Assembly (NCBI RefSeq): GCF_022343685.1
Contig: NZ_CP092123.1
Coordinates: 1,612,001-1,676,000, forward strand
Direction: 5' to 3'
Origin: Marinobacterium sediminicola
GTDB lineage: Bacteria > Pseudomonadota > Gammaproteobacteria > Pseudomonadales > Balneatricaceae
Length of the DNA stretch: 64,000 bases
The notes beneath the pieces are model-generated. The model saw nothing but the letters and a program-made list of their open reading frames with translations. It did no database searches and was not told the origin of the DNA. The position numbers were made by a program, and so were the translations under genes. This document shows positions 19,170 through 24,939 of this stretch, piece after piece. Every line of letters starts with the position of its first letter. The stretch's first letter is position 1.

Positions 19170-19436
19170 ATGAAGAAGTCCCGATACACCGACAGCCAGA
19201 TCATGGCGATACTGAAACAAGCGGAAGCAGGTACCCCAGTTCCCGAACTATGTCGTGAACATGGGATGAGCAGCGCCACATTTTATAAGTGGCGGGCGAA
19301 ATACGGCGGCATGGATGCTTCGTTGATGGCTCGGCTGAAAGAGCTTGAAGATGAAAACCGCCGCCTGAAGAAAATGTATGCTGAAGAGCGGCTGAAGGCC
19401 GAGATCGTCCAGGAAGCACTGCAAAAAAAGTGGTGA
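19170..19436 (+). CDS. IS407-group transposase OrfA (helix-turn-helix part)
   Basis: An 88-residue protein with an N-terminal helix-turn-helix that recognises the element ends ([38 protein letters not shown]). A leucine-zipper-like helix follows ([15 protein letters not shown]). An AGGAGG ribosome site precedes the ATG. The heptamer A_AAA_AAG at 19424-19430, in the zero frame six bases before the stop, is a standard -1 slippery site that would fuse this product to OrfB. Confidence 0.93.
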
Positions 19437-20245
19437 AGCCGTCTCGGCGCAAGGAGATGGCACAGACCTATGTTGCTTCCCGTGGCGTCAGTATCCGGCT
19501 TGCCTGTGCTGCCTTTGGTATCAGCGAATCCTGCTACCGGTACCAACCCAAGCTGTCATCGGAGAATGCTGAGATTGCAGATTGGTTGATCCGCCTGACT
19601 GAACAGGATTCAGACTGGGGCTTTGGTATTTGCTTTGACTACCTGCGTAATGTGAAAGGCTTCGGCTGGAACCATAAGCGCGTATACCGTATCTACTGTG
19701 AACTTGCATTGAATCTGCGCATACGGCCTCGGCGGCGCCTAAAGCGCCATAAGCCGGAGCCGTTGAAACAGCCCCTGCGACGCAACCAGGTGTGGTCGAT
19801 CGACTTCATGCACGATCAGCTGTCGGATGGCAGAAGCTACCGGCTGCTCAATGTGATCGATGACTACCGGCGAGAAGGACTGGCAATAGAAGCAGGCTTC
19901 TCTCTGCCATCCATGCGAGTGATACGCACCCTGTCTCAGTTGATTGAGTGGAGGGGAAAACCATCGCACATTCGCTGTGACAACGGCCCAGAATTCATCA
20001 GTCACGAATTCACCAACTGGGCTCGTAAACATGACATCCGGATTGAGTATATTCAACCCGGCAAGCCTCAACAGAACGCTTACATCGAGCGTCACAATCG
20101 AACGCTCCGCTACAGCTGGGTCAGTAAGCATCTATTCGAAACACTGGAGGACGTTCAGGATTATGCAACGCAGTGGCTCTGGTTTTACAATCATGAGCGG
20201 CCGCACAAAGCCAATGGTGGCCAGCCACCACTAAAAGTGGCTTAG
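19430..20245 (+). CDS. IS407-group transposase OrfB (DDE integrase domain)
   Basis: This is the catalytic part of the IS3-type transposase, 271 residues in the -1 frame relative to OrfA, probably made as an OrfAB fusion. The retroviral-integrase-like core shows all three acidic residues: [17 protein letters not shown] and the [10 protein letters not shown] glutamate. No stop or frameshift interrupts it, so the element should be able to transpose. Confidence 0.93.
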
Positions 20246-20594: not shown

Positions 20595-20623
20595 TTGAAT
20601 TCCGTTTAAAAGCTACGTATAAC
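20595..20623 (+). promoter_or_regulatory. Predicted sigma-70 promoter of the six-gene sensory operon
   Basis: A -35 TTGAAT (20595-20600), a 17-base spacer and a -10 TATAAC (20618-20623, five of six consensus bases) lie 36 bases before the first start codon. A second consensus -35, TTGACA, occurs at 20310 but has only a poor -10 partner. The rest of the 371-base stretch between the insertion sequence and the operon shows no gene. Confidence 0.6.
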
Positions 20624-20659: not shown

Positions 20660-21130
20660 ATGAGTTCAGCAGACAGTCCGGCTGAAGTCGCACAGGATGG
20701 GCGCATGGTGAAAGCGGATCTTCAACTTTCCAAGTTGCAGATCATGTTCAATTTGCAAGCTGACAAGCGTCTGATCTACGTTGGTGCTCAGCCAACAGTT
20801 GCCCTGCGTTACTTGACACGCCTGGTTGCTGCCCGCCCCCGTATTCTGCGAAATCACATTCGCCGCGTATATCTTGCTATTCAGTGTGCGGACAACGAGC
20901 AACTGACGGGTGCCTTGATCGATCTTTTGCTGGTGCTGCGTGGTCGCGGTCAGTTTTTGGTAAATCGTCTTATCCAGCAATCTGGGCCTCTGTTGCAGAG
21001 TGATTATCGGATCATCATGAATAAGGCTGTTGATACACGTGACTTGTCGCGACTGGCGGAGCTGCCGCTTGAGCACGCAGTGCTGAGTAATGGCCGTTGT
21101 ATGCAGTTTTCCAGGCAGAAATTACACTGA
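20660..21130 (+). CDS. Hypothetical helical protein, first gene of the sensory operon
   Basis: I do not recognise the family of this 156-residue protein. It appears soluble and mostly helical, with no signal peptide or membrane segment. The N-terminal 30 residues are polar. The middle (about 55-115) is rich in Arg and Leu (YLTRLVAARPRILRNHIRRVYLAI, split over two helices), and ALIDLLLVLRGRGQFLVNRLI suggests a packed helical bundle. AGGAGG lies seven bases before the ATG, which settles the start against a TTG three bases earlier. The next gene follows after 25 bases. Confidence 0.7.
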   Translation: MSSADSPAEVAQDGRMVKADLQLSKLQIMFNLQADKRLIYVGAQPTVALRYLTRLVAARPRILRNHIRRVYLAIQCADNEQLTGALIDLLLVLRGRGQFLVNRLIQQSGPLLQSDYRIIMNKAVDTRDLSRLAELPLEHAVLSNGRCMQFSRQKLH

Positions 21131-21155
21131 GTACCGCCTGTAGAAGGATATAAAT

Positions 21156-22382
21156 ATGTCGGTCGGTGGTAAGCACTCAATTGGAATCGTCGGTTTTGCA
21201 GCTAATGAAGCGGCAATGCTGGAGATATTCTTTAAGGGTAACAAGGGCGAGGGTTTTGCTCTCTCTGATTCCAGTCAGGCAGATGCACTGATTGTGGGCT
21301 GTAGCGAGAAGGAAGATCACTCCCAGATTGAAAAGTTGCTTGGCGACCAGAAGCTTCCGGTTATAGCGGTTGTTGATCAGTCTACAGAGCATTTGGCTTC
21401 GAATGCCAGTGTGACAATTCGTCGACCTCTGACTCTGGGTGCGCTTCAGGATGCGTTGGCAAAGCTGCGGGGCAGGCTTGATTCTGCTTCGGTCGCCAGT
21501 GGAGTGGCTGTGGCAGTTAGCGAGCAGGAAAAAGCTCGAGAGGAAGTTTTTGCAGAATGGCAGGCTCGCAAACAACGCAGCAGTGAAGCGCTTTCCGCCT
21601 GGAAAGGCGACAGTGCGCAACGAGAGGGTGAAGCGCTGCGGAGTCGTTTCAGTCTTGAGCGGAACGAACTGAATAGCCTGATTCTGGAAGCTCAGCACGA
21701 GTTGCAAAAGCAGCAGGCCTCACGTCCTCCCAAGCCTGCTCCAGAGCCTTTTGTTGAGCCTGAAGAGAAGATTCAAACGCCTAAACTCTCCGCTGAAATG
21801 ATCCAGCAGTGTTGCGGCAGTTTGCCGGACGTAAATCTTGACTCGCCTCATGAGCGTCGCCGTGCCTACTTCAGTCTGGACGGACTGCTTTTGCCTTGGG
21901 TGCAGCGATGTGTGCGTCAAGGAGATGAGACTGGTAACGTGCAACAGGTGTTGGGGGTGCCAGGAGCGTTTTTCTATTTGCCTGCCGAGAAAGTGTTTCT
22001 TGTTGGAATTGATGCTGACCTGTTGTTGCAGCTGACCCGTACTCGCTTTGGTTTCGATGAGATATCGTTGCAGGAGCGCAGTGCGGAGGCTGAGCTGCCT
22101 CAGGGTCGTAAAGTTGCGGCTGATGAATTGCTTTGGCAATTGGCGCTGTTTACATCGCGTGGCCGTGTGCCTGATACGCTCTCTGCAGAACAGCCAAAAC
22201 TGCTGGACGAAATGCCCGATTTCGAGCGCTTGCTTGAAACTCCGCATGCAAGGAGTATTGCTGAGTTGTGGCAGAGTCAGCGCCTGTCAGCACAGAATAT
22301 TGCGTCTATGTTGGGTGTGCCTCAGCGTTTTGTGTTCTCGTTCTTTGTGGCAGCGGACGCCATCGGTCTGTTCTGTCCCTGA
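21156..22382 (+). CDS. Receiver-like protein without phospho-acceptor, with helical C-terminal domain
   Basis: A 408-residue soluble protein. Residues about 7-100 have the alternating strand/helix layout of a response-regulator receiver (IGIVGFA, ADALIVGC, LPVIAVVDQ, VTIRRPLTLGALQDAL). The Asp expected at the end of strand 3 is missing (VGCSEKED) and the strand-5 Lys-Pro is Arg-Pro, so phosphorylation is unlikely. A charged helical linker (about 115-200) precedes a C-terminal domain. That domain ends in a helix-turn-helix-like segment (SAQNIASMLGVPQRFVFSFF). The assignment to the receiver fold is my inference from pattern. Its neighbours suggest a signalling adaptor. Confidence 0.6.
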   Translation: MSVGGKHSIGIVGFAANEAAMLEIFFKGNKGEGFALSDSSQADALIVGCSEKEDHSQIEKLLGDQKLPVIAVVDQSTEHLASNASVTIRRPLTLGALQDALAKLRGRLDSASVASGVAVAVSEQEKAREEVFAEWQARKQRSSEALSAWKGDSAQREGEALRSRFSLERNELNSLILEAQHELQKQQASRPPKPAPEPFVEPEEKIQTPKLSAEMIQQCCGSLPDVNLDSPHERRRAYFSLDGLLLPWVQRCVRQGDETGNVQQVLGVPGAFFYLPAEKVFLVGIDADLLLQLTRTRFGFDEISLQERSAEAELPQGRKVAADELLWQLALFTSRGRVPDTLSAEQPKLLDEMPDFERLLETPHARSIAELWQSQRLSAQNIASMLGVPQRFVFSFFVAADAIGLFCP

Positions 22383-22426
22383 CCGGAAACGTGTGTATCA
22401 CACCATGGATCTTTCGGAGTTTAACC

Positions 22427-23059
22427 GTGAATCAAGAGCAAAATGATACCCCGCGGTATTTTCAGGTCACGCCTAGTGGGGCGTACTATGCAACCCTGAA
22501 TACCGAGCCGGAAACGCTGCGGGCGCTGCTGTTGCAGCTGCTGAGTGCTGATACGCATATTCCGTATCTCGGCTCGTTATTGCAAAAACTGACAGGTCTG
22601 CCGGAGGCTGAAGCGGAGACGCTTCTGGATAAGGCTGTGCAACATGGCTTTATTGATCTTCCGGAAGCCCCGGAAACGATCGCTGCAGGGACAATTGAGG
22701 AGCTGCTGCCGAAGCTGCTGCCGAGTCTTGCTGATGGCCGAGTGTTGCTGGCTGATGATCAGGGTTTCTGTCTGGGGCAGTCAGGCTTCGAAGATGAAGA
22801 AGCTGAGGCTATTGCAGGTATGGCCGCTGATTTGGTGTCCATGCATGAGCGTCATCAGGCATTGCTGGGACGTCATCTGGGTATTGATGGCTCATCCTGG
22901 GCATTGATCGATGCAGTTGGTCAAAGTGAATTGGGTTTTTGGACCCTGCATGTAGGGGAGCAGAAGTTCCTCCTGATTCTGGAAGGGATGCCTCATCTGA
23001 ACCGGCAACCTTTTGTTGATTTGATGTCGGTTCTGATCCGACGTTATCTGGATTACTGA
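22427..23059 (+). CDS. Unrecognised protein with roadblock-like C-terminal half
   Basis: A 210-residue soluble protein with no family I can name. Residues about 10-90 look like a helical winged-helix-type domain (LRALLLQLLSAD, EAETLLDKAVQHGFIDLP). Residues about 100-205 follow the strand-strand-helix-strand order of roadblock/LC7 proteins: VLLADDQGFCLGQSGF, a long helix EEAEAIAGMAADLVSMHER, then FWTLHVGEQKFLLILEG and a closing helix. The following gene encodes a clear roadblock protein, so the two may pair. The GTG at 22427 is chosen because GGAG lies seven bases upstream; the longer frame overlaps the previous gene. Confidence 0.6.
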   Translation: MNQEQNDTPRYFQVTPSGAYYATLNTEPETLRALLLQLLSADTHIPYLGSLLQKLTGLPEAEAETLLDKAVQHGFIDLPEAPETIAAGTIEELLPKLLPSLADGRVLLADDQGFCLGQSGFEDEEAEAIAGMAADLVSMHERHQALLGRHLGIDGSSWALIDAVGQSELGFWTLHVGEQKFLLILEGMPHLNRQPFVDLMSVLIRRYLDY

Positions 23060-23123
23060 TAAAACGGGTTGTCCGTTTTATGCAGAATTACAACCAGCGC
23101 TAATGGCCTAAAAGGAGACTACC

Positions 23124-23486
23124 ATGCGCTCAGAAATGTTGACTTCTATTCTTAACGATCTCAACGGTACCTCTGCTGAAATCGAAGCGTCCGCAGTGAT
23201 TTCTACAGATGGTCTGGTGATTGATGCGCTCCTGCCGGCTGGTATGGATGAAGACCGGGTGGGTGCTATGAGTGCGGCAATGTTGTCGCTGGGTGAACGC
23301 ACCTCTCAAGAGCTTGCGCGTGGTGAGTTGGAGCAGGTCCTGGTGAAGGGTAAGAATGGTTATATCCTGATGACCCATGCTAACCAGGAATCTGTACTGA
23401 CCGTGGTCGCTAAAACAAATGCTCGTCTGGGTCTTATTTTCCTGGACGTGAAGCGTGCGGCCGACGCAATCGGCAAGATTCTCTAA
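23124..23486 (+). CDS. Roadblock/LC7 domain protein
   Basis: A 120-residue protein that is almost entirely one roadblock/LC7 domain: MLTSILNDLNG, AVISTDGLVIDALL, the helix EDRVGAMSAAMLSLGERTSQEL, then QVLVKGKNGYILMTHA and a closing helix. Bacterial roadblock proteins such as MglB dimerise and act as GTPase-activating partners of MglA-type GTPases. No such GTPase is encoded in this operon or elsewhere in the window. AAAAGGAG precedes the ATG. The partner may be the upstream gene product, with its similar but diverged fold. Confidence 0.88.
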   Translation: MRSEMLTSILNDLNGTSAEIEASAVISTDGLVIDALLPAGMDEDRVGAMSAAMLSLGERTSQELARGELEQVLVKGKNGYILMTHANQESVLTVVAKTNARLGLIFLDVKRAADAIGKIL

Positions 23487-23559
23487 ATCGATCACATGCA
23501 CTGGCGTGCATTAGCATCGGTTAGTCGAGTGCACGCTTCTTTTCCGGTTTGGAGTTATT

Positions 23560-24021
23560 ATGTCCGAAAATGATACAGGTTCAGTTCAAGAGGTGCTGAT
23601 CAAGTACTTTGACGGCACAGAGCGGCTGGCCAAGATCGTTGACCGAGAAGTCCCTTATCCCGATGGCAAGTTGATCGTCTCCCGTACGGATCCCAGTGGC
23701 ATTATCACTCATGCCAATCGTGCCTTTGTAGAGATGTCTGGCTATTCCCGTGAAGAGTTGCTCGGCGTGAATCACTACATTTTGCGGCACCCGGATATGC
23801 CGGCTGTCGCGTTCAAGGACCTCTGGGATACGGTGGCTCAGGGTAAAAAGTGGCAGGGTTATGTGAAGAATTTGCGCAAGGACGGTGCATACTACTGGGT
23901 TAAAGCGACCGTCATCCCCAATATTCGCAATGGTGAATTGGTCGGATACACCTCTGTGCGCCGCAAACCATCTCGCAGCAAGATCAAGGAGAGCGAAGCT
24001 CTTTATGAGACGTTGCGATAG
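23560..24021 (+). CDS. Free-standing Aer-type PAS domain protein (probably FAD-binding)
   Basis: A 153-residue soluble protein consisting of one PAS domain (about 35-140) that matches the N-terminal sensor of the aerotaxis receptor Aer. Shared blocks include ITHANRAFVEMSGYSREEL, RHPDMPAVAFKDLWDT, and KWQGYVKNLRKDGAYYWVKA. In Aer the corresponding Asn, Arg and His residues bind FAD, so a redox- or oxygen-sensing flavin is likely. Unlike Aer there is no membrane anchor, HAMP or methyl-accepting domain. The protein ends soon after the PAS fold. A GGAG ribosome site precedes the ATG. Confidence 0.85.
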   Translation: MSENDTGSVQEVLIKYFDGTERLAKIVDREVPYPDGKLIVSRTDPSGIITHANRAFVEMSGYSREELLGVNHYILRHPDMPAVAFKDLWDTVAQGKKWQGYVKNLRKDGAYYWVKATVIPNIRNGELVGYTSVRRKPSRSKIKESEALYETLR

Positions 24022-24034
24022 CTGAGGTACTGCG

Positions 24035-24781
24035 ATGACATTAAATTTATCGGTGAGCCCTGACTTTCCGCCAGCTCATCTATCGGGATGGTTCATTTTC
24101 AATACCTGGTTGCAGCGTCAGCTGGGTACCGGCGTTCACTTGGAGCTTTATGACAGCTTCGAAGAGCAGCGTGAAGATATTCGTAGTGGCAAGATCGATC
24201 TGATCTATGCAAATCCATACGATGCTTCCATGCTTGTGCGTGAACTTGGGTTCAAGGTACTGGTGCGCCCCCGCAATCGTGCAGATGAGACGGTAATTGC
24301 CGTTCGTAAGGATGATGGGCGCAATGCGGTCGAAGATCTTCAGCCCGGCATCACGGTAGCGACGACTGCCGATCCGGATGTTCATATCATGGGTATGATT
24401 ATGCTTGAATCCGCGGATCTGGATAAAAGCAATGTCACCTTCCGTGAGTATGATAATTATGTTCTCGTAGCTAAGGCGCTGCTGAACGGTCAGGCGGACG
24501 TCGGCTTTTTCCTTAAGGCCGGTTACGATGAGTTGTCCGAGTTGGTTCGCAGTAAAACCAAGTCGCTTGTCGATAGTCAGATCAGTGTAGTCCATCATAC
24601 GCTGGTTGCCGGTCCGCGTATGCAAGAGCATATAGAGCTTCTCACGGAGCGCCTGCTGAACATGGAAGAAGATCTCAAAGGCCGAGAAGTCCTCAAAAGC
24701 ATGGGGCTGGATGGTTGGGATCGAATGGAAGATGAGCAGACAGAGTTCATGATCGACCTTATTGATACGCTTATCGATTAA
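24035..24781 (+). CDS. PhnD-like substrate-binding protein without signal peptide
   Basis: A 248-residue protein of the phosphate/phosphonate-binding (PhnD-like) periplasmic protein family. It shows the typical order LSVSPDFPPAH, FNTWLQRQLG, YDSFEEQREDIRSGKIDLIYANPYDASMLV across adjacent strands, and a later VAKALLNGQADVGFFLKAGYD block. The N-terminus (MTLNLSVSPDF) goes straight into the first strand. No signal peptide or lipobox precedes it, and no ABC transporter genes are adjacent. It therefore probably works in the cytoplasm as a ligand-sensing domain. It starts 13 bases after the PAS gene and ends before a strong terminator. Confidence 0.8.
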   Translation: MTLNLSVSPDFPPAHLSGWFIFNTWLQRQLGTGVHLELYDSFEEQREDIRSGKIDLIYANPYDASMLVRELGFKVLVRPRNRADETVIAVRKDDGRNAVEDLQPGITVATTADPDVHIMGMIMLESADLDKSNVTFREYDNYVLVAKALLNGQADVGFFLKAGYDELSELVRSKTKSLVDSQISVVHHTLVAGPRMQEHIELLTERLLNMEEDLKGREVLKSMGLDGWDRMEDEQTEFMIDLIDTLID

Positions 24782-24797
24782 GGTTGTAAGGTGGTCG

Positions 24798-24825
24798 AAA
24801 AAGGCGCCCTCAGGGCGCCTTTTTT
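24798..24825 (+). terminator. Terminator closing the sensory operon
   Basis: A stem AAAAAGGCGCCC/GGGCGCCTTTTT with the loop TCA is followed by a run of T. It lies 16 bases after the PhnD-like gene. Confidence 0.92.
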
Positions 24826-24939
24826 GTTTTGGGTCATCTTCAAGGCTTGGTGTTATTGGTAATCAGCTACCTAAGTTTGTAGAATCCTGCGTCTGCCGAG
24901 TGGCAGTTCTGTTCATTATTTGAAATTGGTTTGGCTCTG

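Follow-up and report, generated by a model that had tools for sequence, protein, structure and literature searches.

A sensor-bearing roadblock operon of Marinobacterium sediminicola as a probable Group 3 mgl locus without mglA

Background

What can a bacterial roadblock protein do in an operon that holds sensors and no GTPase? Bacterial MglB-type roadblocks are taken to regulate MglA-type GTPases, and the question is raised by a six-gene operon at positions 20660-24781 of a 64,000-nucleotide stretch of Marinobacterium sediminicola DNA (contig NZ_CP092123.1, positions 1,612,001 to 1,676,000; hereafter the window), taken from a genome of 3.55 Mb in one contig. The genes, here called g1 to g6, are closely spaced on the + strand, as listed by a first-pass annotation made from the sequence alone, and all six open reading frames (ORFs) were confirmed; they encode, in order, a helical protein, a degenerate receiver, a divergent roadblock-like protein, an MglB-type roadblock, a solo PAS domain and a PhnD-like ligand-binding protein. 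We conclude that the operon is probably a Group 3 mgl (MglA/MglB) locus without mglA, with sensors placed on a roadblock platform and with signalling that is GTPase-free in this genome. The cytoplasmic signal-integration complex proposed by the first-pass annotation is the best reading of the operon.

Group 3 MglA systems, as set out in the accessible portion of Wuichet and Sogaard-Andersen 2014 (PMC4316618), combine MglA and one or two MglB proteins with a protein that has a receiver-like N-terminus, a variable linker and a winged-helix-like C-terminus, and are almost confined to beta- and gamma-Proteobacteria. The same portion places the GTPGQ motif in MglA Groups 2-5 and DAR in Groups 2-3, and describes the MglBs coupled to Groups 2-5 as carrying an Asp-Gly pair, the Asp of which is predicted to lie near MglA. 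It also describes orphan mglB genes in conservons after GTPase loss, so that the loss of the GTPase has precedent. In Snodgrassella, a Group 3 bearer, an orphan mglB mutation is reported to be advantageous in a host other than the native one, potentially via pilus-dependent motility (accessible portion of PMC11112851).

Results

The GTPase gene in relatives

Three genes of the operon, g2, g3 and g4, make up what is left of the published Group 3 MglA locus once its GTPase is set aside, as far as the accessible portion of PMC4316618 describes it. The most conserved member, g4 (23124..23486, + strand, 120 aa), is an MglB-type roadblock/LC7 protein (Pfam Robl_LC7, E 1e-16), just as claimed earlier, and its Asp-Gly pair, D29-G30, is invariant in 23 rows. 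By model, fold search and alignment, g2 (21156..22382, + strand, 408 aa) comprises a degenerate receiver (residues ~1-113) joined by a helical linker to a C-terminal domain that is conserved (~213-408). At the N-terminus its model (mean predicted local distance difference test score, pLDDT, 89.4) resembles a receiver; among solved structures AmiR matches it best (1qo0, E 2.4e-4), and G48 stands at the end of strand 3 where Asp is expected. The model has helices at 365-402, and the C-terminal domain may end in a winged helix; the 50 fold matches listed, given without aligned ranges, are mostly receiver or flavodoxin-like chains, and Pfam matches of helix-turn-helix type occur in few of 48 members. 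The third of these genes, g3 (22427..23059, + strand, 210 aa, GTG start), encodes a divergent roadblock-like protein, which alone matches Robl_LC7 weakly (E 0.049); of 33 homologues, 23 reach E<=0.1 against that family, the best of them 1.7e-4. Homology between g3 and g4 was not significant in a profile comparison.

In relatives, the full cluster reads g1-g2-GTPase-g3-g4-g5-g6. The additional gene, of about 180 codons, encodes a small MglA/Ras-type GTPase and is found in methanotrophs, Thiothrix, Leucothrix, Sphaerotilus and Chromatiales between g2 and g3, a site that in the window is the 44-bp g2-g3 junction (22383..22426). Our scan of named loci used the best 80 of 583 confirmed stretches and so leans to close relatives of g4; it comprised 15 loci of the window's family (L121-L134 and L196) and 65 outside it (L135-L200 without L196). 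Outside the family the GTPase was present in 59/65 loci, in 57/65 between g2 and g3, and the loci without it (L146, L165, L167, L172, L173, L200) include some at a contig border or with g4 and few other members. Within the family it was present in 0/15, of which 14 (L121-L134) hold g1-g4. Because the genomes numbered with G and the named loci partly overlap (e.g. L097/L197, L051/L153, L048/L131, L049/L134), locus counts here are not species counts.

We aligned 14 operonic GTPase rows of relatives (alignment and profile A2). The G1 motif GPVGxGK is invariant, GTPGQ is present in 14/14, DAR in 11/14 (with one DPR and two DGR), and the G4 lysine is absent in 12/14, being present in L101 and L103. 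The GTPGQ, the mostly conserved DAR and the frequent absence of the G4 lysine are the Group 3 features given in the accessible portion of PMC4316618, here seen in the relatives only. One relative's GTPase tested in Pfam matched ATP_bind_1 (2.5e-14) and Ras (4.5e-7). In one locus, a single 500-aa ORF (L104:10344-11846) carries the operonic GTPase C-terminal to an apparent Ser/Thr kinase domain, recognized by eye.

GTPase absence and probable displacement in the window's family

A tree of g3+g4 was built from 117 rows, namely the window and those of 125 loci in which g3 and g4 lie <=2.5 kb apart on one strand. All 33 GTPase-less family rows, including the window, form one clade (Shimodaira-Hasegawa-like approximate likelihood-ratio test 100), which branches near Thiotrichales (support 82), and the named row closest to the window is Marinobacterium halophilum. 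Four changes are needed to explain the GTPase-less label on this tree, the other such rows being L092, L105 and L165; since the last of these, on a short contig, has none of the g3 departures, its GTPase may be situated past the contig end. The tree is midpoint-rooted, and for this reason loss of the GTPase rather than gain is the direction we favour, not one that the tree itself fixes.

The window genome gave no match to the GTPase protein or to profile A2, by searches that detect it in relatives, and the only PF00071 matches in this genome fell in open frames 323-845 aa long. Nor was an A2-type GTPase found in G240 (the genome of L092, 98% complete), in G410 (that of L105, 79%) or in the latter's congener G195 (99%). 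Among 99 family genomes, an A2-type GTPase elsewhere in the genome was found in 37/56 of those bearing g4 vs 0/43 of those without it, and in 35 of the 37 bearers it lies in an open frame of at least 316 aa. Counted by genus, the figures are 6/9 with the operon vs 0/7 without (P ~0.01 if genera are independent). The first-pass annotation had suggested looking for an MglA-type GTPase elsewhere in the genome; the window genome yielded none, and many relatives yielded the long form.

From 20 fetched stretches we read 24 non-operonic GTPase proteins, 17 of which are 316-343 aa long with a tail that looks roadblock-like, on weak evidence: one of three tested tails matched Robl_LC7 (0.0067), the tail profile reached E 0.001 at best against g4 (in a set of 56 proteins), and hhalign gave no significant result. 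In the GTPase tree, these 17 group with two shorter proteins (98); their clade nests among the operonic GTPases, within a set of 31 rows that also holds those of Thiotrichales (95), whereas the remaining five (L207, L217-L220) fall in other parts of the tree. Taken together, these sequences led us to infer that, in the family, the GTPase gene moved out of the operon and acquired a roadblock-like tail, and that it has since gone from the window genome. GTPases of 316-343 aa would escape the counts of PMC4316618, since these cover GTPases of <=240 aa according to its accessible portion.

The long GTPases with such tails (L201, L202, L204-L206, L209-L216) include some in tandem, and an ORF of ~110-124 aa for which Pfam gives no clear match comes after several of them. 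A separate locus in the window's genus (L219:6091-7611) has a g2-like protein adjoining a short MglA-type GTPase that branches apart from most operonic ones.

Changes in the remaining genes

Identical rows were merged for the g3/g4 site comparison and the g2 residue count below, and left unmerged for gene-presence, neighbour and all-member counts. Judged by the residue pattern of receiver domains, the g2 set D48, D50, S/T73 and K90 is complete in 57/77 GTPase-bearing rows vs 0/29 family rows, gapped rows (<=3/77 and <=2/29) being scored as incomplete. The receiver-like protein without a phospho-acceptor of the first-pass annotation is therefore not only confirmed by G48 in the window but typical of its clade.

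The first gene, g1 (20660..21130, + strand, 156 aa), had been called helical, and its model is all-helical (pLDDT 88.5); TPR domains are among the top matches in a fold search, all weak and none significant. In the g1 alignment (A3, rows picked in the range 130-290 aa), its length is 150-173 aa in 15/15 family rows vs 178-266 aa in 38/38 others. Most homologues from GTPase-bearing loci are thus longer and carry an extra C-terminal TPR-like part; of 53 g1 homologues, 25 match TPR_19 at E<=0.1. The tail was measured via total protein lengths, as the aligner placed last residues at the end and spoiled counts beyond the end of the window's g1. Outside A3, g1 is 156 aa long in the GTPase bearer L096 and 247 aa in the GTPase-less L092, so that the length split is not strict.

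In g3, conservation across 74 distinct rows with the GTPase reaches 90% or more at 37 sites, of which 7 are replaced in 29 distinct family rows, compared with 0/33 in Methylococcales, 2/38 in Thiotrichales-Sphaerotilus, 0/39 in Chromatiales and 4/40 in L101-L103. For g4 the family replaces 2/74 sites, and the same four groups, in the same order, 1, 1, 1 and 6. The long branch L169 was left out of these comparisons, and L092, L105 and L165 were held apart.

Conservation and selection

The first-pass annotation had made its novelty depend on conservation beyond this strain, and an operon unique to the strain is ruled out by its conservation in relatives. Matches to g4 occur in 32/96 relatives, including 8/8 genomes of the genus (the window's counted), and at E<=0.001 in 70/369 genomes drawn from the class, many of them weak. 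The main g4 copy is 82-100% identical across 31 family genomes (78% in G480), and the gene order of the cluster is maintained across several genera. Of 31 family loci with sufficient flank, 26 hold all six genes, three lack g5-g6 (L044, L049 and L134, where L049 and L134 are one place in one genome) and two hold g4-g5-g6 alone (L050 and L196, likewise one place in one genome). When the window is compared with four GTPase-less congeners, the ratio of nonsynonymous to synonymous substitution rates (dN/dS) is 0.005-0.016 for g4, 0.005-0.062 for g3 and <=0.083 for the other operon genes where synonymous sites are unsaturated, so that g3 and g4 are under strong purifying selection; many dS values exceed 1, which makes these ratios rough.

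Sensor genes and neighbourhood

The fifth gene, g5 (23560..24021, + strand, 153 aa), encodes a solo PAS domain, with PAS families its only Pfam matches (PAS_3, E 1.5e-17) and an Aer-type assignment from a match to the PAS domain of E. coli Aer (8dik, E 2.2e-35). Aer-type PAS domains bind flavin adenine dinucleotide (FAD). The Aer-type solo PAS domain claimed at first pass is thus recovered, and its FAD binding stands as a prediction. The sixth, g6 (24035..24781, + strand, 248 aa), is PhnD-like (Phosphonate-bd, PF12974, E 2.2e-41), and the match starts at residue 6 and therefore leaves no room for a signal peptide, again as stated before. Kinase, permease, ATPase and methyl-accepting chemotaxis protein (MCP) domains are absent among the Pfam matches of g1-g6, which bear out the claim that the operon has no GTPase, kinase, chemoreceptor or transporter. 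These absences, together with the missing signal peptide, rule out an ATP-binding cassette (ABC) transport or chemoreceptor operon, and the lack of a kinase rules out a conservon.

The two sensor genes travel together: in the 108 of 130 loci that have sufficient flank, both are present in 75, neither in 31, g6 alone in 2 and g5 alone in 0. They mostly lie downstream of g4 on the same strand, also in distant groups, and in Neptuniibacter CAU 1671 the cluster is split into g1-g2-g3-g4 (L134) and a second g4 with g5-g6 (L196). Of the genes that lie nearby without belonging to the cluster, bactofilin and a protoglobin cluster recur most often, at 11/96 loci each. A protoglobin-like ORF adjoins g4 in these 11 loci, 3 of them checked by Pfam; protoglobin (PF11563) lies directly beside g4 in L096:9056-9646, L173:7427-7987 and L200:6113-6676. 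Near L172, L173 and L200 no cluster member was found apart from g4. The bactofilin-like gene (L141:3633-3992 and other Thiotrichales loci; one Pfam-checked) lies upstream of the cluster on the opposite strand in 10/11 loci and on the same strand in L156. A second PhnD-like gene lies between g3 and g4 in L092:9484-10218, in a lineage without the GTPase. PilT-family matches occur in 96/96 relatives, above cut-off in 87, and with PilT near-universal its co-occurrence says little about a type IV pilus link.

Downstream of g6, an intrinsic terminator with a 14-pair stem and a T-run (24796..24826, + strand) agrees with the strong terminator noted earlier. The promoter placed at 20595 was not recovered: no promoter-like site is listed near there, and the region holds four such sites vs a mean of 6.0 in shuffles. 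Upstream, a pair of IS3-type transposase genes (HTH_Tnp_1 and integrase core, Pfam) lies at window positions 19170-20245, separating acnB from the operon; the acnB-g1 gap of L032, a locus of the window's genus, is only ~0.6 kb.

Discussion

How might such an operon work? The binding-protein fold of AmiC is cytoplasmic and controls the pseudo-receiver AmiR. In the mechanism that we propose, the g4 roadblock would be the docking platform for the sensors, with g5 reporting, through its PAS domain, on redox or oxygen and the PhnD-like g6 on a small cytoplasmic ligand. The state of the sensors would be relayed by g4 via g3 to g2, whose C-terminal domain would be the output, and g1 would serve as a helical scaffold; action of g6 on g2, by analogy with AmiC and AmiR, is a possible parallel. 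That g4 is the sensor-facing roadblock is suggested by the position of g5-g6 after it, by the g4-g5-g6 trio, by protoglobin beside g4 and by a known globin-roadblock fusion, and g3 may be the GTPase-facing one, since its conserved residues are lost when the GTPase leaves the operon. In the ancestor the platform would have set the state of MglA, and in the window genome, because the GTPase is gone, g4 would pass its state to g2 by protein contact alone, with no GTP switch in between. More tentatively, and with the balance slightly against it, we propose that flavin and ligand sensors (elsewhere haem sensors) act directly on the MglB-type roadblock pair and the degenerate receiver, with no GTP switch and no phosphorylation, and that this arrangement arose after mglA had left the operon, joined a roadblock-like tail and was lost.

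Several results weigh against a GTPase-free locus of this kind. The roadblock identity of g3 rests on weak scores. The GTPase-less loci L092 and L105 retain the g2 receiver residues, and L092 also has a long g1, so that the g2 and g1 changes are not a simple consequence of GTPase absence; the g3 departures of these two loci overlap those of the family non-significantly (0.11 and 0.15). Compared over 18 loci of the G genomes and the window, g3 departures average 11.4/37 where a GTPase lies elsewhere (9 loci) vs 9.1 where there is none (10 rows); as they are not fewer with a GTPase elsewhere, the g3 changes at most follow the exit of the GTPase from the operon, not its absence from the genome, and g3 decay was dropped as a marker of GTPase absence. 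In g4 the D29-G30 pair of MglBs coupled to Groups 2-5 (accessible portion of PMC4316618) is retained, and g4 may thus still meet a GTPase unseen by A2 and PF00071. One locus outside the 108, L041, has g5 without g6, and no conserved output or effector gene was found beside the cluster in 96 loci.

The retained pair also bears on an explanation in which the operon works via a GTPase in trans, the roadblock-tailed protein or another GTPase having replaced the operonic MglA. The confinement of GTPases elsewhere to operon-bearing genomes (37/56 vs 0/43) and the nesting of the long GTPases among the operonic ones speak for it as well; yet 19/56 operon-bearing genomes, the window's among them, show none, and the open frames matched by PF00071 in the window genome are all of 323-845 aa, and we regard it as unlikely, if the most serious of the rivals. 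That g5-g6 are an independent two-gene sensor that happens to lie next to an mgl locus would fit the 21/77 loci outside the family (with sufficient flank) that hold g1-g4 and the GTPase without g5-g6, but all seven genes occur together in 45/77, distant groups too have g5-g6 after g4 on one strand, and g4-g5-g6 also form a trio of their own (L050 and L196, one genome), so that such a loose neighbourhood seems improbable. Least credible is a decaying remnant left after GTPase loss: g2 is indeed fast-evolving and without receiver residues, and the g1 tail is absent, but the low dN/dS of g3 and g4 between congeners (0.005-0.062) disfavours neutral decay, as do the complete sets of six genes in 26/31 family loci and g4 in 8/8 genomes of the genus. 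A Group 3 mgl locus without mglA, signalling in a GTPase-free manner in this genome, thus remains our preferred explanation.

These relationships form a natural series, from a GTPase in the operon (distant relatives), through one outside it with a roadblock-like tail (Neptuniibacter and others), to none found (the window genome), with sensors and roadblock retained throughout, and the series permits a direct test of GTPase-free roadblock function. It also offers flavin, a small ligand and haem as candidate inputs for Group 3 mgl loci, none of which is named in the accessible portions of the literature searched, and provides a list of g3 residues that may face the GTPase, with sites 71, 123, 128, 150, 157, 173 and 201 as the candidates. 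The first-pass annotation knew of no described system with this composition; g2-g4 do match the Group 3 locus in the accessible portion of PMC4316618, and what appears to be undescribed so far is the sensor association and the GTPase-free form, for which no description was found in open-licence papers.

Among known systems, phosphonate/phosphate ABC transporters are set apart by the missing signal peptide of g6 and by the absence of a permease or ATPase gene among g1-g6, and the Aer aerotaxis receptor shares its type of PAS domain with g5, which at 153 aa has no MCP signalling domain. AmiC/AmiR of Pseudomonas aeruginosa shares the receiver-like fold, AmiR being the best solved match of g2, and the likeness of g6 to AmiC is analogy only. 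The MglA/MglB/RomR/SgmX module of Myxococcus xanthus likewise has a roadblock and a receiver-type protein, and its GTPase and TPR-like helical protein find parallels in the relatives; it is distant in sequence (MglB reaches E ~1e-3 against the g4 profile), and the likeness of g1 to SgmX is again by analogy. Actinobacterial conservons (Cvn, Group 2 MglA) combine the roadblock CvnB and the small GTPase CvnD in one operon with sensory input, whereas the window operon lacks the histidine kinase CvnA and the GTPase and has a PAS domain and a PhnD-like protein instead. HGbRL of Methylacidiphilum infernorum joins a haem sensor to a roadblock domain, comparable with the protoglobin beside g4, but is a single fused protein, confined to the genus Methylacidiphilum and mentioned with no PAS or PhnD-like partner in the accessible portion of PMC4476040. 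Group 3 MglA is the counterpart of the operon: although the locus of the window's clade is without mglA, and g1, g5 and g6 are unmentioned in the accessible portion of PMC4316618, the two share a receiver-like protein with a variable linker, one or two MglB-type roadblocks and an occurrence in beta- and gamma-Proteobacteria, and the GTPase of the syntenic relatives carries the GTPGQ of Groups 2-5 and, mostly, the DAR of Groups 2 and 3.

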